NCBI RefSeq assembly: GCF_000212735.1
Contig: NC_015510.1
Location: 6,697,001-6,761,000, forward strand
Source: Haliscomenobacter hydrossis DSM 1100
Lineage (GTDB): Bacteria; Bacteroidota; Bacteroidia; Chitinophagales; Saprospiraceae
DNA length: 64,000 nucleotides
Reading direction: 5' to 3'
This document shows positions 15,236 to 62,805 of the stretch, piece after piece (the stretch's first letter is position 1; each line of letters begins with the position of its first letter). The position numbers and the translations under genes are program-made. The notes beneath the pieces were generated by a model. The model ran no database searches. It was not told the origin of the DNA and saw only the letters and a list, made by a program, of their open reading frames with translations.

Positions 15236-15871
15236 ATGTCCAAAACAAAAGAACGGATTTTGGAGAAAGCCTTGGAATTGCTGAACGAAAGGGGCGTAGC
15301 GCAGGTTTCCATCCGCAGCATCGGAGATGCCTTGAGCATGAGTCCGGGCAATTTGTGCTACCATTATCCCAATGTGGATGCCATCGTGGAGGCGCTGTAT
15401 TTCCGTTTGGTCGCCGATCTGGACGCCCTGATTTTGGAAAGTATGCAACTGGCCAGCATACAGGGCATTGATTTGCATTTTACGTTTCAGTCCATTGAGC
15501 GCAGCTTTACAACCTTTCAACACTACAAGTTTTTAATGCTCGATTTTGCCGACATCATGCGGCGGCACGAGACTTTAAAAGCTCATTTTCGGCAATTGGC
15601 TGGACAGCGACAGGTGCAATTTATGCAGCTGATCCAGGCCTTGCAGGCGGGAGGCTGGGTGCAAACCGAGCGTTACCCAAATCAGTTTCAGGACTGGATT
15701 CAGCAGGCTTCACTTCTGGGTGATTATTGGATGGCGAGTGCGGAAATCATGCTGGAAGGGGATGAAGAATACAAACGCAAGTACCATCAAGGACTGTTTT
15801 TTTCCACTTTGGCCCCGCATTTGACGGCAAAAGGGCTGGAAAGCTATCAGGAGCTACTCAATAAAGGTTGA
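15236..15871 (+). CDS. TetR-family transcriptional regulator
   Basis: 211 residues. The N-terminal helix-turn-helix is typical (KERILEKALELLNERGVAQVSIRSIGDALSMSPGNLCYHYPN, about residues 4-46), followed by an all-helical ligand domain. The recognition part SPGNLCYHYPN matches regulators of the family that control membrane or detoxification genes. It is transcribed away from the flavin monooxygenase with 88 bp between starts and three related half-sites in that gap, so it most likely represses both genes until a ligand appears. The stop codon TGA lies inside the first word of the hairpin at 15866-15986. Confidence 0.88.
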   Translation: MSKTKERILEKALELLNERGVAQVSIRSIGDALSMSPGNLCYHYPNVDAIVEALYFRLVADLDALILESMQLASIQGIDLHFTFQSIERSFTTFQHYKFLMLDFADIMRRHETLKAHFRQLAGQRQVQFMQLIQALQAGGWVQTERYPNQFQDWIQQASLLGDYWMASAEIMLEGDEEYKRKYHQGLFFSTLAPHLTAKGLESYQELLNKG

Positions 15872-15986
15872 GAAGTTGAGGAGGTTGAGAAGGTTGAGGC
15901 TACCGCAAGTGACAAACCAAAGCGACAAGTGATTATTTTGTCAAAATCGTTCGCGGTAGCCTCAACCTTCTCAACCCCCTCAACTT
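15866..15986. repeat. word-type hairpin, GTTGAG words
   Basis: Left arm 15866-15907 is made of GTTGAG-type words spaced 9-11 bases and ends in GGCTACCGC. The right arm 15952-15986 begins GCGGTAGCC and reads the words back in complement. The loop is about 45 bases. The TetR stop codon is part of the left arm. Compare the same core with GCTGCCGC/GCGGCAGC at 54601-54695, where both arms changed together. Confidence 0.8.
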
Positions 15987-24900: not shown

Positions 24901-24918
24901 GCGTTTAATTTTTCACTT

Positions 24919-25080
24919 AGAGCATGTCTAAAATTTTTCGTTTTGCTGCAAATGGCCCGATTTAGGGTAAATTTCGTTCCGAAAATGCTCATGTAGCGCG
25001 GCTACACTCCGCTTTTCGTGCCTCATTCACCCTAAATCGGCCTCATTTTCGCTTAAAACAAAAATATTTAGACATGCTCT
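24919..25080. repeat. 162-bp palindromic element, copy 1
   Basis: The ends AGAGCATGTCTAAA and TTTAGACATGCTCT are exact complements. Inward, CGATTTAGGGT (24958-24968) pairs with the complement segment around 25028-25038, and GTAGC pairs with GCTAC around the central loop near 24993-25005. A second copy lies at 34675-34835 in the same orientation. Here it sits 18 bp before the start of the minus-strand heme/FG-GAP gene. See the finding for the compensatory changes. Confidence 0.85.
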
Positions 25081-25090
25081 AAAACAAAAA

Positions 25091-25125
25091 TAGACTGCTA
25101 GTGAGTCATCCTCACCAACAGTCTA
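25091..25125 (-). terminator. terminator after SusD
   Basis: Arms 25091-25105 and 25111-25125 pair at 13 of 15 positions (outer TAGACTG, inner GTGAG/CTCAC) with a 5-base loop. Read on the minus strand the stem is followed by a T-rich run (complement of 25081-25090), as expected for a factor-independent terminator. It lies about 80 bp after the SusD stop. Confidence 0.75.
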
Positions 25126-25204
25126 CTTAAAATAATACAAAACACTAAAATCAATTCTGCTAGTATGCTAATGACGCCATCAAAATGGCCAGGGCATTAG
25201 CATG

Positions 25205-26779
25205 CTATTTAACATCCCAGAAGATGCGCGTAGCCAAATTGTCCTTACCACTTACGGCTGTGTAGTTGGTAGGATTGTAAATGGACTCACTGGTTGGATA
25301 AAACCAACGCACCGGTGGTTGTTTTTGAGTATTGGCCGGGTCGTCGCGGAATGTGAATTTAGGCAAATCCAGGCGTCTGATCTCAGACCACAGGTCTACT
25401 GGCTGTACCACGTTGAAGTGGATCCACTTCTGGGTGGCAATCAGATTCAATTTGTCAGTATTGGTCGCCCAGTTCACTGCAGCACTGGTGATGTAGCTGT
25501 TGATCTCGGTATCATTGGTGGCTGCAGGTGCAGGTGTGGTGGCATCGTTGCTCAACTTGCTCACGTTGTAATAAAACTCTACCGACTGCTTGATGGCATT
25601 TTCATAAGCTGCTTTGGCTTGTGCATCATTGTTGGCTTTGAGGTAATATTCGGCCATGAGCAGGCTAACTTCAGCAGCAGTGATCACGATGCCCGGAAAA
25701 AATTGGTTGCGGCTCATGGTTGAACGGTTGTACAAAGACAAGGTACCGCCAGCAACCAGTGCAGTTTGGGCAGAAGCATCCAAGAGCGGATCCAAACCCT
25801 TGTATTCACCGGCAGCATTGAGCCCTGGCTCAAACATGACGCGCAGACGAGGGTCTGCACTTGTTTTCATGTGGTCAATCATCTTTTGGCCAGCAACGTT
25901 GCCATCCCAGTCTTCCAAACCAGAACGGAAGTTCTTGGAGTGGATATCGGTATTCAAATCGTACACATTGATTTGAATGTTTTGTGCATTGTTGCTCACC
26001 ACAGGATACTTGGTTGGATCAGCCAGGATGCTGGCGATTTCAGTGTTGACCCGTCCTTGCAAAGAAGCTACACCCGACACCCGGGTCAACATGCGCAAAC
26101 GCAGGGAGTTGCAATACCGCTTCCACGCAGTAACATCACCTTTGTTGAGGAAATCCTGGGTTTTGAAGCCAACCAGGATACCTGGAGAAACAGTAAGTGT
26201 ATTCAACTCATCCGCCAATGCTTTCAACTCATCCAGCATTTTGGCATAAATAGCCTCTGCTCCATCGTATTTCGCGTAGGATTTTTCATAATCCCCACCA
26301 TTTGTACTCAGCAAAGCTGCGGTAGAAAATGGAATGTCGCCATGCAAATCCACTACCCGTTGGGTATGGTCATAGAGGTAAACGGTAGCGGCAATCATGT
26401 AAATGCGGCGATCTTTTTTGTCGACCTCTTCAAGTTTGCCATAAACCTTTTCCAATTCACGGTACTGTGCCAGGAACCCGTAGTAGGTGTCCCAGCGATT
26501 CCCCAAACCCGCTGATGGGGGAATGTACTGGTTGTCGGAATTCACCCATCCCACTGCCTGGTTCCAGCGCTGTAGGGATGTGCGCAACACGACAAAGTAG
26601 TTCCAATAGTCTGGCAAAACATACCACTTGTTGGCATTCAAAAAGCCGGTGAATTGTTTTTCAACAGTAGTGGCCGTGATTTTAGAAGGATCAGCATAGC
26701 TCGACTCGAAGTCAGCTTTTTGGCAGGCCACCGTAAGCACAACCAGTGCGAAAAACGCTATATAAATTTTTGATTTCAT
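25205..26779 (-). CDS. SusD/RagB-family outer-membrane lipoprotein (SusD-like_2 type)
   Basis: 524 residues from the ATG at 26779 (an ATG three codons earlier is also possible). The signal MKSKIYIAFFALVVLTVACQK ends in a lipobox cysteine. Helical TPR-like SusD features are present: EKVYGKLEEVDKKDRRIYMIAATVYLYDHTQRVVDLHGDIPFS and a C-terminal part with AEVSLLMAEYYLKANNDAQAKAAYENAI and WIHFNVVQPVDLWSEIRRLDLP. It forms the surface lid that hands glycans or peptides to its SusC partner, encoded 38 bp upstream on the same strand. A terminator follows at 25091-25125. Confidence 0.92.
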   Translation of the reverse strand: MKSKIYIAFFALVVLTVACQKADFESSYADPSKITATTVEKQFTGFLNANKWYVLPDYWNYFVVLRTSLQRWNQAVGWVNSDNQYIPPSAGLGNRWDTYYGFLAQYRELEKVYGKLEEVDKKDRRIYMIAATVYLYDHTQRVVDLHGDIPFSTAALLSTNGGDYEKSYAKYDGAEAIYAKMLDELKALADELNTLTVSPGILVGFKTQDFLNKGDVTAWKRYCNSLRLRMLTRVSGVASLQGRVNTEIASILADPTKYPVVSNNAQNIQINVYDLNTDIHSKNFRSGLEDWDGNVAGQKMIDHMKTSADPRLRVMFEPGLNAAGEYKGLDPLLDASAQTALVAGGTLSLYNRSTMSRNQFFPGIVITAAEVSLLMAEYYLKANNDAQAKAAYENAIKQSVEFYYNVSKLSNDATTPAPAATNDTEINSYITSAAVNWATNTDKLNLIATQKWIHFNVVQPVDLWSEIRRLDLPKFTFRDDPANTQKQPPVRWFYPTSESIYNPTNYTAVSGKDNLATRIFWDVK

Positions 26780-26817
26780 TGTTGACAAATTTTCAAGTTT
26801 ACCATAAAAAATAAGGA

Positions 26818-29800
26818 TTAGAAGCTGGCTCTGATCATCACACCCATGGTGCGAGAAGAGGGGTTGGTACCCGCGTTGTTGACCGTTTGAGTCCAGCGAG
26901 AGCCCGAGGTCAACTGTTCAGCGTCAATGTCCTTAATGGTCCGGTAGAAATAGAAGAGGTTGCGGCCAAATACAGACAGGTTCAGCTTGCTGAAGCCCAA
27001 CTTGCTGATCATACTTTGTGGTAAGTTGTAGCCCAGGGTCAACTCTCGCATTTTGATGTAAGAGTTTTTCACGATGTACAACTCATACCGAGACGAACTG
27101 TACTGAGGTCCACCCCAGTTGTACACGTTCCAGTAGTAAAAAGCTTGTGAAATGACATTGGTGTTGGGTTCGCCGTTGGCCAGTACACCGGGCAGCAACA
27201 TTCCATCGTTGTATACTTGTTCTCCGTTTGGACCTTTGTCGCTCGTAGTTTGAACACCTTTTCCACTCGAAACGTAGTAGCTCAAACCACCACTTTCTTT
27301 GTCCATAAACTTGGTGCTTTCTTCCAACAAACCGCGGCTGATCATCCAGTTGATACCCGTCGGCATGACGTGGCCACCGAAGCGGAAATCGGCCAAGGCG
27401 TCCAGGGTAATTCCTTTGAAGGTCAGGGTGCTGAAAAATCCACCAACTGCTTTTGGCATCGCGTTACCTACTTTGATCCAGTTGCGTGAGTCCAATTGGT
27501 ACAGACCGTTGGCATTGACAATTTGCTGACCATTGGCACTTGTAGCAACCGGAGGCACGTAGAAGTCACCCATTGGTTGACCAACGACTGAGCGCAACTG
27601 TGCTGCACTACCATCATAATCGGCGTGCAACAATTCAGTGGCATTGTTCGCCAATTTTTCAACTACGTTTTTGTTGCTGGAGTAGTTGACCCCAATTTCC
27701 CAGAAAAGATTGTCAGACTTGGCAACGGTACCACGCAGCGACAATTCAAGACCTTTGTTGCGCAGTGTACCAATGTTGGTCAGTACGGAAGTTGCGCCAG
27801 AAGTTGAAGCCAATGTCAAAGGCAAAATTTGATCTACGATCTGGGCATTGTAGTAAGATGCCTCAAACGTAATGCGGTTTTTCAGGAAGCGTGCTTCTAA
27901 ACCAAATTCAAACTCTTTCTTTTGCTCAGGACGAATCAGGTCATTGCCAAATGAAGAGGAAATGTTGGTGTACAACACGGGAGTGCCGCCCACTGCCTGT
28001 ATGCCCAGAGTGCCTTGATTGTAAGCGATGTTCGCCCGGTAGATGTCGGGATAGTTACCCACCACGCCATAAGAGCCTCTGAGTTTACCAAAAGAAATAA
28101 AGTCAGGCAGTTTGAACGCATCGGTGAAAATAAAACTGGTATTGACCGAAGGATAAATGAAGCTGTTGTTCTCGGGGTTCATGGTAGAAGTCCGGTCGCG
28201 GCGGAGGGTACCTTCTACAAACAAGTATCCTTTGTAATCGAGGTTAATGGTCCCAATGTAGGCGTCCTTCACGAGGGCAGAACGGCTTGATCCACTATTG
28301 GCTACGTTAATCGATGCCGCAATGTCAAACAGGTTTTCCGTGCTCAAACCACCATTGGTACCCCGGCTAACGAAAGTAGCAACGTCTTTGGTCGCCATGT
28401 AACCACCCATGACATTCAGCTCAAAGCTAGGAGACAAACGTTTGGTATAGGTCAGCAAGGCGTCGCCGTAGAGGATGGAATAGAGGTTGTTTTCTAAGCC
28501 AAAGTAGCCAGAGTTGCCAAATGCCAGTGGTCTCTCGGTGTAGTTTCTGGTTTCGATACGCTCGGAAGTGAAGTCCGTAGAAATTCTACCCCGGAACTTC
28601 AGATCAGGCAAAATCTGGTAGTGGTGCGTCATACTGGCGATCACCCGATTGCTGAATTCATCCAGCAGGTTTTTGTTCACCCGCCAAACGTAATCGGCGA
28701 TGTCACCTTTAAACCCATTGTAAATGATGTTTTCGTTAGGTGTCAAACTCTGTCCGGTACCGGTAACGAAGCGATAGCCCCGGCTGGTTTGGTACTTGTT
28801 GAGGTACCAATCGGCATTGTCAAAACGTCCGATCATCCCGGTAAAGTTGTTGATCATTCGGTCGATGGAGTAAGGGCGGTTTTCGGTCTTTTGGTTGATG
28901 TAGTTAACCAAAAGGTCGGTGGACCATTTTCTGCCCAAACGGAAAGTGCTATTGAGGTTAGCGATGTTTTTCTGGTTGCCCGCATTGAGGCTCAAGCCTC
29001 GGTTGTCCTGGCGGGTCAAGGAAAAACGGATGTTGCTGTTTTCAGATGCTTGCGAAACGGCAACGTTAACATTGGCGGTATGTCCCTGCTGATACAGACC
29101 TCCGTAGTTGTCTTCCTGAGCTTCATATGGGCGTACAATGCCATCCCAGCCCATGATCGGTTTGCCGTCAAATTTTGGCCCAAAGTTGATGGAATAGTTC
29201 AAAATTCCACGGGTATCTTTGGTGCCATCACCATTGGTGTCATAATAAATGAACCCTTCGGCATCCTGGCCACCATTGTTTACGTGAATGGGTGCACCCG
29301 CACCACGGATGTTTTGGTATCGGGGCAAATAGGCCACGTTGTCTACCCCATAGCTGGCGTTGAAGTCCACGTTCATGCCTTTTTTGCCTTTGCCACTTTT
29401 GGTTGTGATCAGTACAACCCCGTTCACTGCTTCAGAGCCATACAGGGCCGCCGCGGAAGCACCTTTCAGGATCGAGATGTTGTCGATGTCTTCAGGGTTG
29501 ATGTCCAACAAACCGTTACCGCGTAGACGCTGGTCACTCCAGTAGTCGTTGTTGCGCACTTCTCCATCGCGGATGGGTACCCCGTCCAATACGATCAGCG
29601 GTTGGCTACGACCAGTGATGGAGTTGACCCCCCGGATGTTGATATTGACTGCACTGGTGGCACCCCCTGGAGTAGCGGCAATGCGCACCCCTGGTGCTTT
29701 TCCATACAAGGCAGTAGCAAGGTTGGGTGTACCGGCATTGGTCAGATCTTCAGCCTTGATGGTACTGCTGGCGTATCCCAGTGCTTTCTGTTGTTTGCTC

Positions 29801-30126
29801 ATACCCAATGCGGTGACGACCACTTCGCCTAGTTGAGCTGCAGTTTCCAACATCACTACATCAACTACACTACGTCCCTCAATCGGTACTTCTATCGTCT
29901 CAAATCCGGTAAATGAAAGAACGAGGGTGTTGGTCAAGGCAGTAGATAGTGAAAATTCTCCTTTTTCATCGGTGACGGTACCAGTGGAAGTACCTTTTAC
30001 AAGTACATAAGCGCCGGGTAGTGGCTCCTTGTCGGCTCCGGTTACCTTACCAGATACCTTTTGAGCGAAAGCGCTGTAGCTTATTGTGGTTAGCAGCACA
30101 ACAAGCATAAGTAGGCTTTTTTTCAT
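26818..30126 (-). CDS. SusC/RagA-family TonB-dependent outer-membrane transporter
   Basis: 1,102 residues. Signal peptide MKKSLLMLVVLLTTISYSAFA, then a carboxypeptidase-regulatory-like beta-sandwich (about 22-100: VSGKVTGADKEPLPGAYVLVKG), a TonB plug (about 115-240, with the SusC hallmark IRGVNSITGRSQPLIVLDGVPI and SILKGASAAALYGSEAVNGVVLITTK), and a 22-strand barrel to the end, finishing in a C-terminal aromatic (MGVMIRASF). It imports oligosaccharides or peptides with the SusD lid encoded next. A ROK regulator gene lies 65 bp upstream on the same strand, and a palindromic site lies between them at 30161-30175. Confidence 0.95.
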   Translation of the reverse strand: MKKSLLMLVVLLTTISYSAFAQKVSGKVTGADKEPLPGAYVLVKGTSTGTVTDEKGEFSLSTALTNTLVLSFTGFETIEVPIEGRSVVDVVMLETAAQLGEVVVTALGMSKQQKALGYASSTIKAEDLTNAGTPNLATALYGKAPGVRIAATPGGATSAVNINIRGVNSITGRSQPLIVLDGVPIRDGEVRNNDYWSDQRLRGNGLLDINPEDIDNISILKGASAAALYGSEAVNGVVLITTKSGKGKKGMNVDFNASYGVDNVAYLPRYQNIRGAGAPIHVNNGGQDAEGFIYYDTNGDGTKDTRGILNYSINFGPKFDGKPIMGWDGIVRPYEAQEDNYGGLYQQGHTANVNVAVSQASENSNIRFSLTRQDNRGLSLNAGNQKNIANLNSTFRLGRKWSTDLLVNYINQKTENRPYSIDRMINNFTGMIGRFDNADWYLNKYQTSRGYRFVTGTGQSLTPNENIIYNGFKGDIADYVWRVNKNLLDEFSNRVIASMTHHYQILPDLKFRGRISTDFTSERIETRNYTERPLAFGNSGYFGLENNLYSILYGDALLTYTKRLSPSFELNVMGGYMATKDVATFVSRGTNGGLSTENLFDIAASINVANSGSSRSALVKDAYIGTINLDYKGYLFVEGTLRRDRTSTMNPENNSFIYPSVNTSFIFTDAFKLPDFISFGKLRGSYGVVGNYPDIYRANIAYNQGTLGIQAVGGTPVLYTNISSSFGNDLIRPEQKKEFEFGLEARFLKNRITFEASYYNAQIVDQILPLTLASTSGATSVLTNIGTLRNKGLELSLRGTVAKSDNLFWEIGVNYSSNKNVVEKLANNATELLHADYDGSAAQLRSVVGQPMGDFYVPPVATSANGQQIVNANGLYQLDSRNWIKVGNAMPKAVGGFFSTLTFKGITLDALADFRFGGHVMPTGINWMISRGLLEESTKFMDKESGGLSYYVSSGKGVQTTSDKGPNGEQVYNDGMLLPGVLANGEPNTNVISQAFYYWNVYNWGGPQYSSSRYELYIVKNSYIKMRELTLGYNLPQSMISKLGFSKLNLSVFGRNLFYFYRTIKDIDAEQLTSGSRWTQTVNNAGTNPSSRTMGVMIRASF

Positions 30127-30160
30127 TGAGTGCAATGTTTAGATTGAGTAAATAGAATGG

Positions 30161-30175
30161 TTTAAGTCGACTAAA
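30161..30175. promoter_or_regulatory. possible operator centred on GTCGAC before SusC
   Basis: TTTAAGTCGACTAAA is an imperfect palindrome. On the coding strand it reads TTTAGTCGACTTAAA. The word TTAGTCG recurs just before the second SusC gene at 57775-57781. Both loci have a ROK regulator beside them, so it may be a regulator site; this is inference. Confidence 0.35.
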
Positions 30176-30191
30176 TTCACTTCATCGGTGT

Positions 30192-31412
30192 TCATAAAGC
30201 TCCTTCGTATCGTGGTGTTTCAATTTTTGGAAGGTGGAGATGTTCGAAATTTTCCATAACTAAAGAGGCAGCGCCAATCATTTCAGCCTGGTAGCCTAAT
30301 TCAGATACTTCGATGGTGGTATTGTGGGCGAGTCGCGGGATGCAGTATTCGTTCAATGCCTGTTGGATCGGAGCCTGCCAGATTCTTCCAGCCATGGCCC
30401 CTCTACCGCTCAACACAATCAACTTGGGATTGAGTAGATGGATCAAAATAGATACCCCTCTACCGATTTTCAACCCAATTTCAGATAGCAATTCAATGGC
30501 AAATTGGTCACCTTCCAGTGCCGATTTGATGATCAGGTTGTTTGCTTCTTCGGGACTATCGTAAGGGATGCCCTGCAAGGAGGATATTCGTCCTGCCTTC
30601 AATCCTTCTTGTGCCTTTTCAACCAATACCAGCAAGGATGTTTCGGTTTCGAGGCACCCATGTTTGCCACAGCTGCACAGTTTATTGTTGTTGAACAGTG
30701 GGATGTGGCTGAATTCTCCGGAAAAACCGATCTCCCCGCGGTAAAGGGCCCCATTCAGGATCATCCCCAGGCCAACTCCCCAGTTCATGTTGATTACCAT
30801 GGCGTTTTTTTCTTTGGCTGCGGCACCAAAGCGCCATTCTGCCAAGGCAATCAAACTCGAATCATTGTCGATCAATACAGGAATCCCTACCGCCTTGGAA
30901 ATGTGTTCAGTGATGCTGCTGTCCGGAGCAGCTTTCAAAAATGAATAATTGATGCCTTTTTGGGGATCAACGAATCCGGGCATCGCGATGCCAATTCCTA
31001 CGATCTTTTTTTTGTCAACAGTACTTGTTTCGATAAAAGTGGCAATTGCTGTGGTTAAAATGGCCAATGATTCGTCATTGCCTTTGAGCACCAAATCTAC
31101 TTTTGCTACTTCTCCGATGTAATTGTTCTGCATGTCCATCAGGGCAATGCGGGTAATGAGTTGGTCCATCGATACCGCCACCACATACTGCATATCTGCC
31201 CTTACCGAATACATCAAGGGGCGTCGTCCACCCGTTGATGGTGCCAATCCGTTTTCAATTACCCGGTTTTCTTCCATCAATTCATTGATCAGCTTGGTGA
31301 CCAATGGCAAACTTTTGTCCATTTTTTCACACAGATCCGCGCATGACAATAAGCGGGAGAAATAAAACTCCTTGATGATGCCCCGTTTGTATTGATTTTT
31401 CTTCTCTGACAT
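30192..31412 (-). CDS. ROK-family transcriptional regulator
   Basis: 406 residues. An N-terminal winged helix-turn-helix (about 15-80: LLSCADLCEKMDKSLPLVTKLINELMEENRV, then GGRRPLMYSV) is joined to a ROK sugar-kinase-like domain with the ATP-type motif GIGIAMPGFVD, the zinc motif CSCGKHGCLE (about 245-254) and GVSILIHLLNPKLIVLSG. The full zinc site supports a NagC/Mlc/XylR-type repressor that binds a sugar or phosphosugar. It is upstream of SusC on the same strand, so it may be co-transcribed with or control the transporter genes. An inverted repeat upstream at 31480-31517 could be its own operator. Confidence 0.9.
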   Translation of the reverse strand: MSEKKNQYKRGIIKEFYFSRLLSCADLCEKMDKSLPLVTKLINELMEENRVIENGLAPSTGGRRPLMYSVRADMQYVVAVSMDQLITRIALMDMQNNYIGEVAKVDLVLKGNDESLAILTTAIATFIETSTVDKKKIVGIGIAMPGFVDPQKGINYSFLKAAPDSSITEHISKAVGIPVLIDNDSSLIALAEWRFGAAAKEKNAMVINMNWGVGLGMILNGALYRGEIGFSGEFSHIPLFNNNKLCSCGKHGCLETETSLLVLVEKAQEGLKAGRISSLQGIPYDSPEEANNLIIKSALEGDQFAIELLSEIGLKIGRGVSILIHLLNPKLIVLSGRGAMAGRIWQAPIQQALNEYCIPRLAHNTTIEVSELGYQAEMIGAASLVMENFEHLHLPKIETPRYEGAL

Positions 31413-31479
31413 AGTGAAAAAAGTAGAAACAGATGGAATAAATTAATAATTCTTATCAAAGTAATAGAACAAATGTAGA

Positions 31480-31517
31480 ATACTTTTCTATTTTTTTATA
31501 AAAGTATGGGTACTTTT
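31480..31517. promoter_or_regulatory. AAAAGTA/TACTTTT operator-like repeats upstream of the ROK gene
   Basis: ATACTTTT (31480-31487) is the exact complement of AAAAGTAT (31500-31507). The latter also pairs with TACTTTT (31511-31517) across TGGG. Three alternating half-sites 68-105 bp before a regulator's start suggest autoregulation. Confidence 0.45.
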
Positions 31518-31604
31518 TTATTTTTTAATCAAATGATTGGGAAAATGACAGAAATCCAGGATAGCGTTTGGTCAAGCAAAGATTGAGGAGATGATGTAAA
31601 ACAA

Positions 31605-31646
31605 TGAAGGCGTAAACAGCAGAATGACTTGCTATTTACGCCTTCA
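31605..31646 (-). terminator. terminator after the AraC gene
   Basis: TGAAGGCGTAAA (31605-31616) pairs exactly with TTTACGCCTTCA (31635-31646), with further pairing of GCA/TGC inside. On the minus strand the stem is followed by a T-rich tract. It ends the AraC/cupin transcript. Confidence 0.7.
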
Positions 31647-31673
31647 GGTGTGCCTTATTTAATGCCTGAGCCA

Positions 31674-32504
31674 CTAGACCTCTACCAAACCAAATTCCCT
31701 TTCTGGAGATTTTCCATCGGCCAAAAGAAAACCATTCGGGGTCATTTTGGTGAATGCTACAAAGTCACGTACCAAATGCTGATAATCGTAATACCCCAAA
31801 TCAAAGGCAATGCGCTGCCAGTCTTTTTGTGGCTGTGCATTTTTTACCTTAAATGCTTTTTCAAAGCGAGCAATCCGATCAAAAGCTTTGGGGCTGATGC
31901 CCATCCGCTCTGCAAACTGCCGTTGAAGTTGCCGAACACTTAAATAAGCCTGTCGGGCAATCCAGTCTACGGATACAAGTTGGGTTTGCTGCAAAATCAA
32001 GCTACTCGCCCGATCCACTCCCAATAGTTCACGTTTGGATTGTTGAACGACTTTCTCTAAAAAACGTTCGGCAATGGCTATGGTTTCTCCTAAATTTTCA
32101 GTGTTGCACATCTGTTCGTGTGCATAGCGTATGGCTTGACCCCATATAGCTTCAGCATCGATAAACGTATTCGTCAATTCATGGGCAGGAATCCCGGTCA
32201 GTCGAAACAAAGCCCCAGGCTGCAAGACGACTTGTAAAGCCCAAAAATCTCGGGCAATTAGCCGATTTTGGAGCAGGGTATGTTGTCCGTAGAGGGTGCA
32301 TTTGTGGTGCATTTGCAGGGGCGAACCATCGAGGTAATCGACGCATTGGAGTTCTCTCAGGTAAAAAACCAAGCAGTGTTCGGGGCGAGGAGCATAGGCT
32401 TTTGCGGGTACCGCTTCATTCGCCCCGAACACAAACCGGATGATTTGATGCTTGCGCACGTGCTCTTGTAAATGGGGGCTGGGTAAGACGTCTTTGAGAA
32501 TCAT
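31674..32504 (-). CDS. AraC-family transcriptional regulator
   Basis: 276 residues. The N-terminal half is the DUF6597-like sensor seen in many Bacteroidota AraC proteins (HVRKHQIIRFVF ... LQVVLQPGALFRLTGIPAHELTNTFIDAEAIWG). The C-terminal 90 residues carry the HTH_18 domain (VDWIARQAYLSVRQLQRQFAERMGISPKAFDRIARFEKAF, then WQRIAFDLGYYDYQHLVRDF). The gene begins at the base next to the stop of the cupin gene, so the two are translated from one message. The cupin is its most likely functional partner. The inducer is unknown. Confidence 0.88.
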   Translation of the reverse strand: MILKDVLPSPHLQEHVRKHQIIRFVFGANEAVPAKAYAPRPEHCLVFYLRELQCVDYLDGSPLQMHHKCTLYGQHTLLQNRLIARDFWALQVVLQPGALFRLTGIPAHELTNTFIDAEAIWGQAIRYAHEQMCNTENLGETIAIAERFLEKVVQQSKRELLGVDRASSLILQQTQLVSVDWIARQAYLSVRQLQRQFAERMGISPKAFDRIARFEKAFKVKNAQPQKDWQRIAFDLGYYDYQHLVRDFVAFTKMTPNGFLLADGKSPEREFGLVEV

Positions 32505-33056
32505 TTACTTCAAAGTTAGTGGCGGGCCAACGTTTTTCATGCCGTGTTCATTCGAGATACGTTGCATTTCTTCAGCAGATGGAGGTACTTTAAAGCTATT
32601 CATTTTTACAAAAAATTCTTCTAGTTTCCCTGCGGGCTGAACCATGTAGAGGAGTTTCCCCTGATCCGACAACTGAATCCAGGTATGAGGGATCTGCCGG
32701 GGCAAAAAAATGGTATCGCCGGCACTTAGCACCTCTTGTTGATCTCCTACTTGAAAGCGGTACTCGCCTTCAATGATACAAAAAATCTCGTCTTGATCAA
32801 AATGAAGGTGCAGTGAAGGGCCAGTCTTTTCAGTGCCAATGTACTCAAAAACAGCCAGTTGACCATTGGTGTCTTTCCCCGAAATTTTTACATCATTCGG
32901 ATTTACACCTCGGAAAGGAGTATGTACCCCAAAACGGGCTTCTCCATTTTTGACGACAAAAGGTTTTTTATCCTTTTTTAATACAAGACTCTTCGCTGAA
33001 ACACCGATAGCGGTAGCGACTAAGGTTGTTGAAGTTAAAAATTTTCTGCGCTGCAT
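32505..33056 (-). CDS. Tat-exported cupin-domain protein
   Basis: 183 residues. The N-terminus QRRKFLTSTTLVATAIGVSA fits a twin-arginine signal, meaning the protein is exported folded and perhaps with a metal. The cupin barrel (about 75-150) keeps both motifs: LHLHFDQDEIFCIIEGEY (His, His, Glu) and GDTIFLPRQIPHTW (His). With three to four ligands in place it can bind iron, manganese or another metal. It may be a small dioxygenase, isomerase or binding protein. It is the first gene of a two-gene unit with the AraC regulator that abuts it. Confidence 0.78.
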   Translation of the reverse strand: MQRRKFLTSTTLVATAIGVSAKSLVLKKDKKPFVVKNGEARFGVHTPFRGVNPNDVKISGKDTNGQLAVFEYIGTEKTGPSLHLHFDQDEIFCIIEGEYRFQVGDQQEVLSAGDTIFLPRQIPHTWIQLSDQGKLLYMVQPAGKLEEFFVKMNSFKVPPSAEEMQRISNEHGMKNVGPPLTLK

Positions 33057-33319
33057 AACAGGTGATGTTTTGGTTTGTTATGCAAATTTTGGCTTTTCCT
33101 GGCTGGGTTTGGTGGTAAAAATCGGACGTTTTTTGGGAAGTAGCGAGTAAAAAGGCTGAGCATGATGTTTGATTAAAATACTCCAGGGGATATTTAATTT
33201 TATAAAAATGTCCCAATACTGACTTGATTCTTACTTATCGGTACTTTTTCAAAACAATCATCCGAATTTTTAGTTTACCTTTAGCAAGTACCATACAACC
33301 TTAACCAAACATCAGCACC

Positions 33320-33748
33320 ATGACGCCACCACGGGCGAACAACGTCCAGTCTTGTGGGTGTAAGCGGCAGGAAAAGCAGCGCAAACGGCAGCGCATGTCT
33401 TTCCTGCTTACAATTATTGTGGCGATTCTACCCAAGTGTCCTTTCTGTGCTTTTGGTTATTCCAGTGTAGTCGTGATGTGTAGTGGAGCTAAAATCCACC
33501 AGTATGAAGCCAACAGCTTGGGCTACCTCTCCATCATTTTGGCTGTTGCCGTTTTGATTTCCCTTTTTTGGAATTACAAAGGAAGAACAACTCTGATTGC
33601 TGCGATGGTAGCCATTTTGGGGATGTTTCCTTTAATATATGCGCAAAGAATTTCCGGCAATCCTTTGGAGTATTTCGCGGGTACGGCACTGATCCTGCTG
33701 GCCGTATTGCTCAATGGGAGGTGGTTCAGGAAATTAAACAAGCTTTAA
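33320..33748 (+). CDS. small membrane protein with Cys-rich N-terminus
   Basis: 142 residues with about four membrane helices (around 27-50, 68-84, 90-106 and 118-134). The N-terminal cytoplasmic part has SCGCKRQEKQRKRQR, and a second cysteine pair PKCPFC lies in the first helix; MCSG follows. It does not match a family I can name with confidence; the layout recalls small MerC-like or redox/metal-handling membrane proteins. It lies 56 bp before the first cox gene on the same strand, so it may be the first gene of that transcript. A near-consensus -7 box (TACCTTTA) lies at about 33277-33284. A role in metal supply for the CO dehydrogenase is possible but unproven. Confidence 0.6.
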   Translation: MTPPRANNVQSCGCKRQEKQRKRQRMSFLLTIIVAILPKCPFCAFGYSSVVVMCSGAKIHQYEANSLGYLSIILAVAVLISLFWNYKGRTTLIAAMVAILGMFPLIYAQRISGNPLEYFAGTALILLAVLLNGRWFRKLNKL

Positions 33749-33804
33749 AATGTGAACAACAAACGAAACCCCATTTGGAATACACAACCTAAATTCAGAC
33801 CTAC

Positions 33805-34677
33805 ATGATTCCGCAGGCTTTCAACTACGAAGCGCCAACTACACTTGCAGGAGCCATTGCCTTGTTGCAAAAATACGGTTCCGATGCCAAGATCATGTCC
33901 GGGGGGCACAGTCTCATTCCCATGATGAAACTGCGCCTGGCAACTCCCGAACACGTGATCGACATCAGTGGCATCAAAGGCATGGAATACATCCATGAAG
34001 AGGGTGGCTACCTCAAAATCGGTGCACTGACCAAAGAGGTTGCACTGGAAGAATCCCAATTGATCCACAGCAAGTACCCACTCATTACCGACGCTACCAA
34101 AATGATCGCCGACCCCTCGGTGCGCAATTTGGCAACCGTAGGGGGAAACCTGGCTCACGGCGATGCCGCCAACGACCACCCCGCAGTGATGTTGGCCCTA
34201 CGTGCAACGGTGCTGGCTTCCGGCCCAAATGGCGATCGGGAAATTTCCATCGATGACTTCTTCCTGGGCTTTTTTACCACCGCCTTAGAAGCGGATGAAA
34301 TCCTCACCGAGATCCGCATCCCGATTCCTCCCGCCAGAAGTGGAGGCGCTTACCTGAAAATGGAGCGCAAGGTTGGGGATTATGCCACCGCAGGCGTTGC
34401 TGTGCAATTGAGCCTGGATGCCAGCGGGCATTGCCAGCAAATTGGTATCGCCCTGACCAATGTCAGTGCCGCGTCACTTCGTTCAAGCCGTGCCGAGGAA
34501 GCCTTGCGGGGACAAATGTTGAGCGACGACTTGATCCAAAAAGCCGCCACCATGGCCGCCCAGGATTGTGATCCCAACGCTGATTTGCGGGGATCAGTAG
34601 CCTACAAACGCTCTATTGTCAAAACCCTGGTGGCTCGAGCCATTCACATTGCCGTCGAACGGGCAGGTGTTCAATAG
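33805..34677 (+). CDS. coxM: aerobic CO dehydrogenase medium subunit (FAD-binding)
   Basis: 290 residues. It has the two FAD-binding signatures of the molybdenum hydroxylase medium subunit: SGGHSLIPMMKLRLA (residues 32-46) and ATVGGNLAHGDAANDHP (about 109-125). The last third is the CO_deh_flav_C domain (GGAYLKMERKVGDYATAGVAVQL). It carries electrons from the iron-sulfur subunit to the acceptor, probably the quinone pool. Gene order M-S-L matches coxMSL of carboxydotrophic bacteria. Assignment to CO dehydrogenase and not another xanthine-dehydrogenase-like enzyme rests on CoxL downstream. The stop codon TAG is part of the palindromic element at 34675-34835, which fills the gap to coxS. Confidence 0.88.
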   Translation: MIPQAFNYEAPTTLAGAIALLQKYGSDAKIMSGGHSLIPMMKLRLATPEHVIDISGIKGMEYIHEEGGYLKIGALTKEVALEESQLIHSKYPLITDATKMIADPSVRNLATVGGNLAHGDAANDHPAVMLALRATVLASGPNGDREISIDDFFLGFFTTALEADEILTEIRIPIPPARSGGAYLKMERKVGDYATAGVAVQLSLDASGHCQQIGIALTNVSAASLRSSRAEEALRGQMLSDDLIQKAATMAAQDCDPNADLRGSVAYKRSIVKTLVARAIHIAVERAGVQ

Positions 34678-34835
34678 CATGTTTAAATATTTTTTGTTTT
34701 GCTGCAAATGGCTCGATTTGAGGTGAATTTCGTTCCGAAAATGCTCATTTAGCGCTGCTAAACTCCGCTTTTCGTGCCTCATTCACCTCAAATCGACCTC
34801 ATTTTCGCCTAAAACAAAAATATTTAAACATGCTA
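34675..34835. repeat. 161-bp palindromic element, copy 2
   Basis: Ends TAGCATGTTTAAATA and TATTTAAACATGCTA are exact complements. It is closely similar to copy 1 at 24919-25080 in the same orientation and differs at paired positions. It lies inside the cox cluster between coxM and coxS, overlapping the coxM stop codon, so it cannot be a complete terminator if the genes form one operon. Confidence 0.85.
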
Positions 34836-38820: not shown

Positions 38821-38828
38821 CGAAGAGT

Positions 38829-38931
38829 AATGGGAACGCGGATGATGCGGATTAAGCGGATTTACGCGGATTTATTTTCGGATAGTTTATCCGCGTAGAT
38901 CCGCTCAATCCGCGTCATCCGCGTTCCCATT
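38829..38931. repeat. word-type hairpin between coxD and coxE, GCGGAT words
   Basis: Left arm 38829-38872 (AATGGGAACGCGGAT, then GCGGATT words) pairs with right arm 38887-38931 ending GCGTTCCCATT. It starts 8 bp after the coxD stop. The same words build the large elements at 41823 and 44462. Confidence 0.8.
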
Positions 38932-40199: not shown

Positions 40200-41213
40200 A
40201 TGAGCAACGAAATTTATGAAATGGCTTCTGACCTGATCCTGCAAGGTGAACCCTTTGCCACCGTAACCGTGGTGCGCAATGAGGCACCCAGTTCAGGCAA
40301 AACCGGAGACAAAGCCATCGTCAATAAAACCGGCGTATTAAAAGGTTGGGTAGGTGGGGGCTGTGTGTATTCCATCGTACTCAAAGAAGTCACCGAAGCC
40401 CTGGACGACGGCAAACCCCGTCTCGTACGGGTGAGCCCTACTCCAAGTAACGAGCCCAGCCGGGGGGTCAAAGAATACAAAATGACCTGTTACAGCGGGG
40501 GAGAGGTAGACTTGTACATCGAACCCGTGATGCCCAAACCCCATTTGGTCATCATCGGTAAATCGATCATTGGACGGGCCCTGATGAAGGCGGCCAAAGC
40601 CATCGATTTTCGCCTGACGGTGATCAATGAAGAATCCAATCAGGAGGTGTTCCCCGAGGCAGACCACCATCAGACTGCATTCAACCTGGAGGGCATCAGC
40701 TTCAACAAACACACCTTCATTGTGGTGGCCACCCAGGGCGACAACGATGAACGAGGATTGCAGACCGCATTGGGGGTGAAATGCCGCTATGTGGGTTTCA
40801 TTGCCAGTCGCAAAAAACGGGATGGGGTGTTTGCCAATCTGCTCAATCTGGGCCTTAGCCAGGCACAACTGGACGAAGTACACGCCCCTGCTGGAATCGA
40901 CATCAATGGCAAAACCCCGCAAGAGGTCGCCATCAGCATCCTGGCCGAGATCATTCAGGAATACCGGAGCAAAGAGGTCGCCTTCGAATCCTTTTCGGTG
41001 CCCATTGCGGCAAGTGGACAGCAGCGCAGCGACCTTCAATCCGGAAGACCTCAAATCATCACCAACCCCGTTTGTGGCATGCCCATCTCACTGGGCATGG
41101 CCAAATACATTATTGAACAAAATGGCGAGCCCATTTATTTTTGTTGCGATGGCTGCAAAACTAAATTTGATGCCGAGCCAGAAAAATACTTAATGAAGGT
41201 TGAGAAGGTTTAG
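40200..41213 (+). CDS. coxF: CoxF, XdhC-type maturation protein fused to a YHS domain
   Basis: 337 residues from the ATG at 40200; a GTG at 40185 is less likely. Residues 1-75 are the XdhC/CoxI N-terminal domain (GEPFATVTVVRNEAPSSGKTGDKAIV, GWVGGGC), and about 115-260 the XdhC Rossmann domain (LVIIGKSIIGRALMKAA ... VVATQGDNDERGLQTAL ... GFIASRKKRDGV). Residues about 288-332 form an added YHS domain (NPVCGMPIS ... YFCCDGCKTKFDAEPEKYL), a cysteine-rich metal-binding unit. In Oligotropha CoxF helps load copper, so the YHS part may hold copper for delivery; this is inference. The final residues VEKV and the stop are encoded by the first words of the hairpin at 41196-41273. Confidence 0.85.
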   Translation: MSNEIYEMASDLILQGEPFATVTVVRNEAPSSGKTGDKAIVNKTGVLKGWVGGGCVYSIVLKEVTEALDDGKPRLVRVSPTPSNEPSRGVKEYKMTCYSGGEVDLYIEPVMPKPHLVIIGKSIIGRALMKAAKAIDFRLTVINEESNQEVFPEADHHQTAFNLEGISFNKHTFIVVATQGDNDERGLQTALGVKCRYVGFIASRKKRDGVFANLLNLGLSQAQLDEVHAPAGIDINGKTPQEVAISILAEIIQEYRSKEVAFESFSVPIAASGQQRSDLQSGRPQIITNPVCGMPISLGMAKYIIEQNGEPIYFCCDGCKTKFDAEPEKYLMKVEKV

Positions 41214-41273
41214 GAGGTTGAGTGTCGCTTGCGGCAGCATAAACCTTCTCAACTTTCTCAACCTCCTCAACTT
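41196..41273. repeat. word-type hairpin overlapping the 3' end of coxF, GGTTGAG words
   Basis: Left arm 41196-41222 contains the last four sense codons of coxF and its stop; right arm 41239-41273 pairs with it. A short inner stem GTCGCTTGCGGCAGC follows the left arm. The right arm ends 20 bp before the coxG start. Confidence 0.8.
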
Positions 41274-41293
41274 ATTTCAAAACAACTTACAGC

Positions 41294-41822: not shown

Positions 41823-42736
41823 CGCTACGTAGGCTCTAAAACCCGCGATCGTCGAGCCTGCTCGCGCAGCGAGCATTTTAGGATCGAGCGCCCACGTAGT
41901 GGCATGTAAAATGGATAATCGACAGGAATTACCTGGTTTGTGCACTGCGCAGGGGTGCGCCAAAGCGAAATAATGGGAGCGCGGATGACGCGGATTGAGC
42001 GGATTTACGCGGATTTTCTTTCGCCTGAAGCAGCGAGCTGTGAAAAGTAATGCCAAGAATTTTTCGCAGCTGCGCTGCTCATGGTTAATTTTACCACGAC
42101 GATTACGTGCTCTGCGCTTTAACGCCTTCGGCGTAGAACGGCATTGATTGGAAAACGGATGAAACGGATGAAACGGATAGGAACGGACTTTGACTCGCCT
42201 TCGGCTCGTCTTTATCCGCCGCAGGCGGAATAAACATCCGTTTTTATCCGTTTCATCCGTTTTATCCGTTTTGCAATCCTGTCGCTTTTAGCAAAAAGAG
42301 GCGAAGCCTCAAAAAGCGCGAAGCGTATAAAACGTTGTGGCTCGTCGTGTACGTCGTAGCTACAAAAAGAGCAGTAAAGCTGCGAAAAGTATCAATATTA
42401 CTTCTTATTACTCTTTGCTATCGTTTGCGCTAACGCGTGTAAACACGAACGAAATGAGTGTTCAATTTGTGGAAATTTGTGCAATTTGTGGCCAGTTCAT
42501 CACGTCGCAGGCGGGATAAAAATCCGCGTCATCCGCCCAATCCGCGTCATCCGCGCTCCCATTATGTCGCTTTGGTACACCCTTGGGAAGAAAGGCAAAA
42601 TCTTGTTCATCATGTCTAAAATCAGTACCTCGCGCTAGATTGGACATCCTACCCCCCACTCCGTGGGCGCTCGTCGATCTTTTACTGCCTCCTGCGTCGG
42701 CAAGCTCGACGATCGCGGGTTCTAGAGCTTGCGTTT
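41823..42736. repeat. large hairpin-rich element A in a 1.1-kb gene-free stretch
   Basis: Nested inverted repeats. Outer tips (CCCGCGATCGTCGAGC at 41842 and its complement ending 42719) enclose arms with CACTGCGCAGGGGTGCGCC and GCGGATT words on the left (to 42027) and the complementary GCGGATT words on the right (42516-42560). The middle holds an ACGGATGAA-word hairpin (42151-42187 with 42235-42272) and the TTTGTGG words near 42460-42491. No credible gene is present between coxG and the SUMF1-like gene. It is closely related to element B at 44462-45043. Confidence 0.75.
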
Positions 42737-42835
42737 TGTTGAATGTTGTTGCAAAGAGGGCAAGCTTGTGCAGCCTTCCGTTTCCAATTTTTTATTATTT
42801 TGCCTCCGCACTTTAAAACCGAAAACGCCAGCACC

Positions 42836-44433: not shown

Positions 44434-44461
44434 AACAGTTTTTTTACGGTCACGTTCAACC

Positions 44462-45043
44462 AGGAGTAGGCTCTGGTGCCCGCGATCGTCGAGCTTGCCG
44501 ACGCAGGAGGCAGTAAAAGATCGACGAGCGCCCACGTAGTGGTGGGTAAAATAGATAATCGACAGGATTTGCCTGGATTGGGCACTGCGCAGGGGTGCGC
44601 CAAAGCGACACAATGGGAGCGCGGATGACGCGGATTGAGCGGATTTACGCGGATTTTATTCGCCTGCGGCGAAAGTTTTTATTTGCCACAAATTGCACAA
44701 ATTTTCACAAATTGAGGCACAAACTTCGTTTGCGCTAACGCGTGCAAACCAGAACGAAGTTAGTATTCAATTTGTGAAAATTTGTGCAATTTGTGGCCAG
44801 TTCATCACGCCGCAGGCGGGATAAAAATCCGCGTAAATCCGCCCAATCCGCGTCATCCGCGCTCCCATCATGTCGCTTTGGGAAAACCTTTGCAGGATAA
44901 GCACCATATTGCCCACGAGTCCCGAAATAAGCACCTCGCGCTAAGCCGCACATCTTACCCGCCACTCCGTGGGCGCTCGTCGATCCTTTATTGCTCGCTG
45001 CGCGAACAGGCTCGACGATCGCGGGAGCCTGGAGCCTACTCCT
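44462..45043. repeat. large hairpin-rich element B in an 0.8-kb gene-free stretch
   Basis: A complete imperfect palindrome: AGGAGTAGGCTC at 44462 pairs with GAGCCTACTCCT ending 45043; inner tips carry CCCGCGATCGTCGAGC (44479) and its complement (to 45025); then GCGGATT words (44618-44655 with 44822-44868) and at the core TTTGTG words (44683-44720 with 44767-44797). Bases 44479-44536 are the exact reverse complement of 42662-42719 in element A. The remaining 45044-45247 shows no gene. Confidence 0.78.
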
Positions 45044-54595: not shown

Positions 54596-54600
54596 ATTGG

Positions 54601-54695
54601 GTTGAGAAAGGTTGAGGAGGTTGAGAAAGTTGAGGCTGCCGCGAGCACCGCTGACAATGTCGCTCGCGGCAGCCTCAACTTCTCAACCTTCTCAG
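54601..54695. repeat. word-type hairpin, GTTGAGGAG words with GCTGCCGC core
   Basis: Left arm 54601-54646 and right arm 54661-54695 pair; the inner 18 bases GTTGAGGCTGCCGCGAGC and their complement are exact. It fills the gap between the permease stop (54696) and the hydantoinase start (54595). It is the same family as 15866-15986 and 41196-41273. Confidence 0.85.
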
Positions 54696-62722: not shown

Positions 62723-62805
62723 TTCACCACAGATGGCCACAGATTCACACAGATTTTATATCATATCTATAAAATCTGTGTGAATCTGTGGCCATCTGTG
62801 GTGAA
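62723..62805. repeat. perfect 38-bp word-type hairpin, CACAGATT words
   Basis: Arms 62723-62760 and 62768-62805 are exact reverse complements with a 7-base loop. Words are CCACAGATGG, CCACAGATT and CACACAGATT. It lies between the convergent SusD and ROK stops and could serve both as a terminator. Confidence 0.92.

Follow-up and report, generated by a model that had tools for sequence, protein, structure and literature searches.

According to our analysis, the two palindromic copies found in the window (the whole stretch of 64,000 nucleotides of Haliscomenobacter hydrossis DNA that was analyzed) are members of a family of miniature inverted-repeat transposable elements (MITEs), that is, short non-autonomous transposons, of this bacterium. 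Their fold is maintained on one strand, whichever way the flanking genes run, and this observation is new here. In our best explanation, which we consider probable, the elements are MITEs mobilized by an IS5-family transposase and carrying a conserved, strand-specific folded module.

Structure, Distribution, and Mobility of the Elements

The two copies lie where they had been predicted, over 162 and 161 nt, and are 91% identical across 149 nt. Copy 1 is a full element of 160 bp bounded by GAG...CTC (24920–25079, on the minus strand, which is the strand of the maintained fold), with a left terminal inverted repeat at 24920–24944 (plus) and a right one at 25055–25079 (minus). Its conserved hairpin module, covering 110 positions of our covariance model R1 with 117 bits, is located at 24944–25053 on the minus strand (contig positions 6721944–6722053, minus). 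Copy 2, including its TA...TA flanks, spans 34675–34835 (minus) and its repeats lack the outermost GA/TC; its module is found at 34700–34809 (minus; contig positions 6731700–6731809, minus) with 122 bits for R1. Copy 1 is flanked by TTA on the left (24917–24919) and TAA on the right (25080–25082) and therefore has no exact duplication; an exact 3-bp duplication is kept in neither of the window copies. As to gene context, copy 1 is upstream of a minus-strand ORF, 19 bp from its start, and copy 2 extends over the TAG stop codon (34675–34677, plus strand, at the insertion boundary) that ends the ORF at 33805–34677; as predicted, the two are oppositely placed relative to their flanking genes.

The possibility that only these two copies exist was refuted by the search with the covariance model, which revealed 65 places in the H. 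hydrossis genome; the DNA search gave at least 40, a lower bound with 40 of 79 candidates scored. The copies end in GAG...CTC inverted repeats (GAGCWTGTYTAA) that are complementary at a mean of 12.0 of 13 positions, under a boundary rule that excluded copies with fewer than 9 of 13 complementary end positions. After 28 of 158 copies without a clear boundary were left out, 71 of the remaining 130 proved to be flanked by 3-bp TNA duplications, against 26.9 expected from shuffles and a maximum of 39 in 1000 shuffles. TAA or TTA accounts for 60 of these 71 target duplications; 2-bp and 4-bp duplications are fewer than expected among the 130 copies, at least 126 of which are 157–185 bp long. At the single site compared, that of copy 2, the sister genomes G002 and G004 lack the element and have a TAG stop of their own.

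An 880-bp IS5-family element with GAGCATGTCTAAA ends and a TAA duplication was found in sister genome G004. Over 24 nt, the ends of copy 1 agree with its left end at 21 positions and with its right end at 19, and both terminal inverted repeats of copy 1 give the same counts. The potential helper combines the TNA target of 3 bp with an IS5 transposase, which matches NF033580 (IS5 family transposase) above the cut-off and contains the domains PF13340 and PF01609 (DUF4096 and DDE); we assume that it may belong to an IS1031-like subgroup. The H. hydrossis genome itself has four intact IS copies with a transposase of 62% identity, all of them flanked by a duplicated TAA or TTA, and the end of copy 1 agrees with their left end at 19 of 26 positions. 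A regex search for the module motif gave no match in either full-length IS, and among 53 end-pattern sites of the H. hydrossis genome, with spacing judged by eye, none proved to be an autonomous element bearing family B ends.

The family thus shows the features of MITEs: short length with terminal inverted repeats, target-site duplication, dispersed copies together with an empty site, and a matching autonomous element. The original prediction had preferred a DNA-level or mobile element over a fixed-orientation leader, and the inverted ends and 3-bp duplications, together with the empty site in two sister genomes and the matching IS5-family ends, support this preference. We propose that an IS5-family (DUF4096 plus DDE) transposase would act on the GAG...CTC repeats, probably as a helper working in trans on the MITEs, and would insert them into TNA with duplication of 3 bp.

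Paired Changes and Nearly Fixed Loops

Both copies fold far better than dinucleotide shuffles, with z of −11.9 for copy 1 and −11.7 for copy 2 and none of 200 shuffles as good. Comparison of the two copies yielded exactly the five paired changes predicted (C-G to T-A twice, A-T to G-C, G-C to A-T, and G-C to T-A), and two one-sided changes also preserve pairing. In the same alignment ten pairs are broken, none of them outside the outer stem; these were left out of the count, and we attribute them to an artefact of register, due to the 162/161 gap, and to the eroded tips of copy 2.

The covariation within the element family is real. Over the family, 211 double-change cells were counted against 69.6 after shuffling, and 96% were paired, compared with 30–48% when the partners were slid, so that the outcome of no covariation beyond chance did not arise. 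Of five measures, three are strong and two weak, the latter being the pairs with a double change (21 against 15.8, reached in 1 of 500 shuffles) and the pair types (48 against 43.0, reached in 9 of 500); the structure used for the test was derived from the same sequences. Covariation beyond the control is what is asked of a structured RNA, and the RNA itself is putative.

The center of the element is more conserved than its outer arms. The module consists of helices with paired drift; the internal loops between them are rich in G.A and almost invariant, namely 5'-RAGGC ... AACGMA-3' and a GA/GA loop beneath a short tip hairpin. The facings A31.G79, G45.A65, and A46.G64 are Watson-Crick in none of 36 sequences; others turn Watson-Crick in some (A35.G75 in 12, A5.G105 in 13, G4.A107 in 5, and G33.A77 in 1 of 36). 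Non-canonical covariation was also observed among 35 elements of other genera, some of which share one genome: G30 occurs with A80, and A30 with A, C, or T (p 6e-5).

Part of this pattern could be explained if the elements were simple palindromic MITEs whose fold is not under selection and whose arms are kept complementary by template switching during replication or by arm-to-arm conversion. Terminal branches, too, carry perfectly matched double changes (49 from Watson-Crick to Watson-Crick against 137 to a mismatch), differing end sequences still pair (the mean of 12.0 of 13 given above), and four of eight tested loop facings are Watson-Crick in some copies. However, copying between arms should remove facing loop mismatches, and the three G.A facings above are never Watson-Crick. 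This reading is already strained, and the strand polarity described below, which it does not predict, leaves it unlikely.

Strand Polarity of the Fold

On the strand that is the minus strand in both window copies, single mismatches comprise 82 G.U against 35 A.C inferred events (p 1.7e-5 against equality, and p 8e-4 against the per-site ratio of 1.2 at unpaired sites). The ratio of 1.2 is too small for the mutation spectrum to be the cause of the excess. In the combined alignment the outer columns are misaligned, and the counts were therefore restricted to inner pairs; three positions were excluded (two mostly G.T in the top strand and one mostly fixed G-C), and the event tree was built on the same alignment, with ancestral ties resolved toward Watson-Crick. 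Isolated mismatches in 45 further elements, a count that scores G.U and A.C mismatches alike, number 62 G.U against 14 A.C, or 29 against 3 by element; the motif and palindrome filter for this count was passed by 24 of 35 loci (L245–L279) and by 8 of 27 (L332–L358). The ratio of 121:43 in alignment A3 is not evidence, as that alignment was fitted to the model. Stability differs between the strands in the same direction in 36 of 36 and 52 of 55 sequences, which is partly a restatement of the fixed loops.

The polarity did not differ with flanking transcription, at small counts: G.U to A.C ratios were 13:8 and 14:7 for the two orientations and 25:10 for mixed surroundings. Since the mismatch types show that the fold of one strand is maintained, the "DNA-level" character previously proposed for the elements holds for their mobility and not for strand neutrality, and it should not be taken to mean a symmetric cruciform.

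Relation to Neighboring Genes

In a survey of orientation that covered 150 places, the 109 intergenic places with genes on both sides showed no clear bias (p 0.72): the folded strand was co-directional with both genes in 38, opposed to both in 34, and mixed in 23 and 14. These figures and the equal polarity in both orientations argue against a cis-regulatory RNA (a terminator, leader, or stabilizer) acting for adjoining host genes, which we regard as very unlikely. Such a role would agree with the location of copies near gene ends and with the finding that in 17 of 113 cases the 3 bp at one boundary serve as the stop codon for an ORF of at least 100 aa, against 2.7% at random nearby TNA sites. 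However, this excess may be explained by survival, as the 3-bp duplication would restore the stop codon. The same role would also agree with the 34 places that overlap ORFs, where both-co-directional cases exceed both-opposed ones 11 to 1 (p 0.006); we suspect that this excess is due to spurious ORFs, and when these places are added to the intergenic ones the counts are 49 against 35 (p 0.16).

The lack of a clear orientation bias in intergenic places and the independence of polarity from flanking transcription would equally be expected of a single-stranded DNA hairpin that serves the replication or transposition of the element itself. G.T also outpairs A.C in DNA, and DNA folding parameters give the same polarity in 54 of 55 sequences. 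On the other hand, G.A-rich asymmetric loops with non-canonical covariation look like RNA motifs, and we know of no DDE transposase of this kind that requires a strand-specific internal hairpin. In addition, mini-palindromes with the ends and little or no module exist (L073–L077, of which L076 is 20 bp long with TCA on either side), and the module may therefore be dispensable for movement. We consider the single-stranded DNA hairpin possible, at rather less than even chances.

Under the preferred explanation of IS5-mobilized MITEs with a folded module, the one-strand fold would have been selected during the elements' own history and not for the adjoining genes. The folded molecule would be a transcript, by a slight preference over single-stranded DNA, and a factor of the host or of the transposon might bind it and thereby favor the survival or spread of copies.

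Known Repeats and Distribution of the Module

In Neisseria, the Correia repeat enclosed elements (CREE or NEMIS) duplicate TA, and the 127-bp enterobacterial unit is ERIC, an imperfect palindrome. With 3-bp TNA duplications and IS5-family ends, the H. hydrossis elements differ from CREE and, judged by the TA duplication and the Correia end repeat of that group, do not belong to it; their core is a strand-polar G.A-loop hairpin, which is also present in other genera between different ends. CREE resemble our elements in being short, palindromic, MITE-like, and present in many copies, with paired ends, a directional conserved core, and target duplication, and RNase III is described to bind their transcribed hairpins (PMC2649163). 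The enterobacterial 127-bp repeats are likewise intergenic with MITE features (PMC2759123), but occur in another phylum, and we claim no common sequence or module. MITECca01 has ends in common with a full-length IS (of IS982 type), the probable source of its transposase (PMC9769881); the ends of our elements also match a full-length IS, whereas their interior is not a shortened IS.

The Rfam search of the whole window gave nothing at gathering thresholds, and at permissive E copy 1 had miRNA long-hairpin matches on both strands, which we read as chance. The nearest Rfam model was Flavo-1 (RF01705), below threshold and for the cousin L285 only. Flavo-1 is a multicopy Bacteroidota hairpin (PMC2864571), as is our element, and both have GA-rich internal loops; its matches are also reported to be indifferent to transcription direction (PMC9723704). 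L285, a family B element, scored 33.9 bits with letters in common at both ends of the match, but this is below the 42-bit cut-off and stands alongside equally large long-hairpin chance matches. Copy 1 had no match at E up to 10, the best match in its own genome reached 20.1 bits (E 0.46), and R1 matched none of the Flavo-1 places at five loci searched. The Flavo-1 model differs in having 76 positions, and no end repeats or duplications were seen by eye at two of its loci. Identity with Flavo-1 is rejected for the window copies at this cut-off and is most improbable for the element as such. In the open-access literature searches, no title or abstract beginning among the matches listed describes the element.

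The RAGGC/AACGMA hairpin was found in 101 of 248 genomes of the taxonomic family and sparsely elsewhere in the phylum, within palindromes having differing ends; viral contigs gave no match to the module core. Chances are about even, in our estimate, that this hairpin is a structured nucleic-acid module of Bacteroidota that has not been described before, a passenger common to many non-autonomous transposons with differing ends that is retained for helping the element itself, as RNA or single-stranded DNA, and amounts to a payload that transposon families have in common.

MITEs are usually viewed as empty transposon shells, whereas the elements described here have a conserved center, differing ends, and a one-strand fold. 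These features make it testable whether such elements in bacteria serve their own benefit by carrying structured RNAs, or single-stranded DNA hairpins, that are functional. The comparison of G.U with A.C mismatches, oriented by asymmetric loops, is a simple test that separates strand-specific folding from symmetric palindromy, and it could be used on ERIC, Correia, and Flavo-1 elements.

Fold, covariation and copy number

According to our analysis, the two palindromic copies lie where the original prediction had placed them, at window positions 24919-25080 (copy 1) and 34675-34835 (copy 2), and the strong fold claimed for both was recovered (z about -12). The five paired changes proposed between them proved to be exactly five double changes with pairing kept, and at least one kept double change was found at 38 of the 50 predicted pairs among 63 aligned copies. 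Covariation also exceeded chance: when 36 divergent interiors were aligned without gaps and given a 36-pair structure adapted from the RNAalifold consensus, the covariation score was reached by none of 500 shuffles, pairing cells amounted to 96.0% (80.4% shuffled, 30-48% slid) and double-change cells to 211 (69.6 shuffled). Two weaker measures were the number of pairs showing any double change (21 vs. 15.8 shuffled, 1/500) and the number of pair types (48 vs. 43.0, 9/500). These 36 interiors were chosen for divergence and for the pattern core, so the invariance of the core partly reflects this choice of sequences; the BLAST-found set has the same invariant core.

A whole-genome search with the covariance model of the 110-nt interior hairpin (the module) revealed 65 places in H. 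hydrossis DSM 1100, i.e., more than the two copies originally described; 48 scored at least 89 bits and 17 scored 36-65 bits, and one place is plasmid-borne. The DNA search gave at least 40 distinct places (48 matches, eight being the same places on the opposite strand), a lower bound, as 40 of 79 candidates were scored. A core-pattern scan of genome contigs yielded 118 stretches from four assemblies in all, every one (118/118) from Chitinophagales or Saprospiraceae MAGs.

Mobility and putative helper elements

The element begins with GAG and ends with CTC. Boundaries were clear in 130 of 158 copies, and among these 130 an exact 3-bp direct repeat was present in 71, where 26.9 were expected and none of 1000 shuffles exceeded 39; TAA (32), TTA (28), TGA (5) and TCA (4) were the commonest. 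The site of copy 2 is empty in two sister genomes (G002 and G004), where the spacing between the upstream and downstream ORFs is 164 bp below that in H. hydrossis. For 17 of 113 copies, the 3 bp at one boundary serve as stop codon to an ORF 100 aa or longer, compared to 2.7% of 2260 TNA sites within 300 bp in the random control, and nine of the 17 have the same 3 bp on both flanks. We infer that insertions at stop codons do no harm, because the 3-bp duplication restores the stop.

An 871-bp IS, present in H. hydrossis as four intact copies with identical proteins, encodes a 256-aa frame of the IS5 family transposase and has ends GAGTATGTTCAAAATTTT and TAA/TTA duplications. The G004 element (880 bp, ends GAGCATGTCTAAAAATTT, TAA duplication) encodes a transposase 62% identical to it; compared with either end of copy 1, 21/24 positions agree in the left end of the G004 element and 19/24 in its right end. 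A regex search found the interior motif in neither IS, so the interior of this MITE (a short non-autonomous transposon) is not a shortened transposase gene.

Several variants were also observed. Mini-palindromes of about 20-59 bp in H. hydrossis (L073-L077; G000:C1:2174200, 2436400, 3812180, 5213160 and 7528790 regions) consist of two end repeats with little or no interior, and L076 is 20 bp long with TCA on either side. Three copies in H. hydrossis (L018, L022 and L298) share the hairpin-tip insertion TCCCGACAAGCCGGGACA; therefore, a modified copy has probably multiplied. JAAFJY loci, including L095, L098, L103, L108 and L165, carry extra small hairpins (e.g., CCTTT-loop-AAAGG) inserted into the module's internal loop region, on its left or right side.

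The module across families and its relation to known repeats

Of 248 Saprospiraceae genomes, 101 (57/112 genera) carry the module according to the covariance model with strict filters (E<=0.001). In genomes drawn evenly from the phylum, the broader model R2 (E<=1e-4) detected it in 15 of 395 genomes (12/171 genera): three Saprospiraceae, H. hydrossis included, four of another family of the same class and eight outside the class, spanning five families. The surrounding palindromes, read by eye, differ in end sequence: those of the cousin family B have ends TAGACTTGTTG... and are mostly TA-flanked, others have AAGTACCAGATCATAAT..., GAGTGTGTTTGG..., GAAGCTGTTTGAA..., GGGCGTGTTGACA... or TACGAATTACATTT..., and GAGCTTGTTT-like ends recur in several other genera. 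Across 55 modules, in an alignment fitted to the model, the helices vary around loops whose letters, RAGGC and AACGMA, hardly change. G30 stands opposite A80 in 29/30 cases, and A30 opposite A, C or T (10, 12 and 2); among 35 elements of other genera (two each from six genomes), the partner was A for G30 in 15/15 and for A30 in 7/20 (p 5.9e-5). Such a pattern would be the behaviour expected of a non-canonical G.A pair.

No Rfam match at the gathering threshold was found in the whole window. The family B cousin L285 scored 33.9 bits against Flavo-1, short of the 42-bit cut-off, and miRNA long-hairpin noise matched it at equal scores; 17 further module loci gave no Rfam match at E<=0.01, except a tRNA elsewhere in one locus. 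The module (39.1 bits, L319) also occurs beside a Flavo-1 match in a genome of the same order but another family. In how it works, the element resembles Flavo-1 and Correia-type MITEs to some extent, and by the tests made it is a member of neither.

G025, of the same order and another family, has at least 88 Flavo-1 matches at E<=1 (89 candidates scored, a lower bound), 61 of them exceeding the family cut-off; by reading, Flavo-1 loci L300 and L319 are bare hairpins without end repeats. An Acido-Lenti-1 RNA (RF01687) match above the gathering score lies at L260:80-125 in a Saprospiraceae genome. The window itself holds a second dispersed palindromic family with GCGGAT/ATCCGC units, several copies falling inside 6.2 kb (38828-38931, 41829-42296, 42421-42746 and 44452-45025), a perfect inverted repeat of 38 bp around a 7-bp loop (TTCACCACAGATGG..., 62723-62805) and dispersed GGTTGAGGAGGTTGAG-type repeats, some as inverted pairs (15870-15986, 41194-41285 and 54597-54645).

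Strand polarity and orientation

Were palindromy the sole feature maintained, a single mismatch on either strand should be G.U as often as A.C. Parsimony over 165 distinct copies gave 82 Watson-Crick to bottom-strand G.U events vs. 35 to A.C (p 1.7e-5; 15 to 5 per pair, p 0.04), the bottom strand being the minus strand in both window copies. At unpaired sites, where the corresponding substitutions numbered 100 and 96, the per-site ratio was 1.2, and against this ratio the excess persisted overall (p 8e-4), on terminal branches (61:30, p 0.020) and on internal branches (20:5, p 0.014). With an alignment scoring G.U and A.C alike, the 161 genus copies had 108 isolated G.U mismatches to 26 A.C. 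Another 45 elements had 62 to 14; of these, 24 came from other Saprospiraceae genera, ten belonged to family B and one to family C, one was a main-family tip-insert copy, and nine were others. Counted per element, this second set gave 29 to 3, with p 2.6e-6 across elements that include related, non-independent copies. The minus strand folds better in 36/36 and 52/55 cases, which partly reflects the fixed loops.

Orientation relative to neighbouring genes was scored at 150 places with a simple ORF caller. Both neighbours were co-directional with the fold strand in 38 intergenic copies and opposed in 34; 23 and 14 places were mixed, and seven lacked a gene on one side. An ORF was called across the element at 34 places, where co-directional cases outnumbered opposed ones by 11 to 1; all classes together gave 49 vs. 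35 (p 0.16). Terminal-branch polarity, in small counts, was 13:8 with the fold strand sense, 14:7 with it antisense and 25:10 at mixed places. Based on this similar polarity and the balance of orientation, selection appears, within these small counts, to act on lineages of the element rather than on its insertion context.
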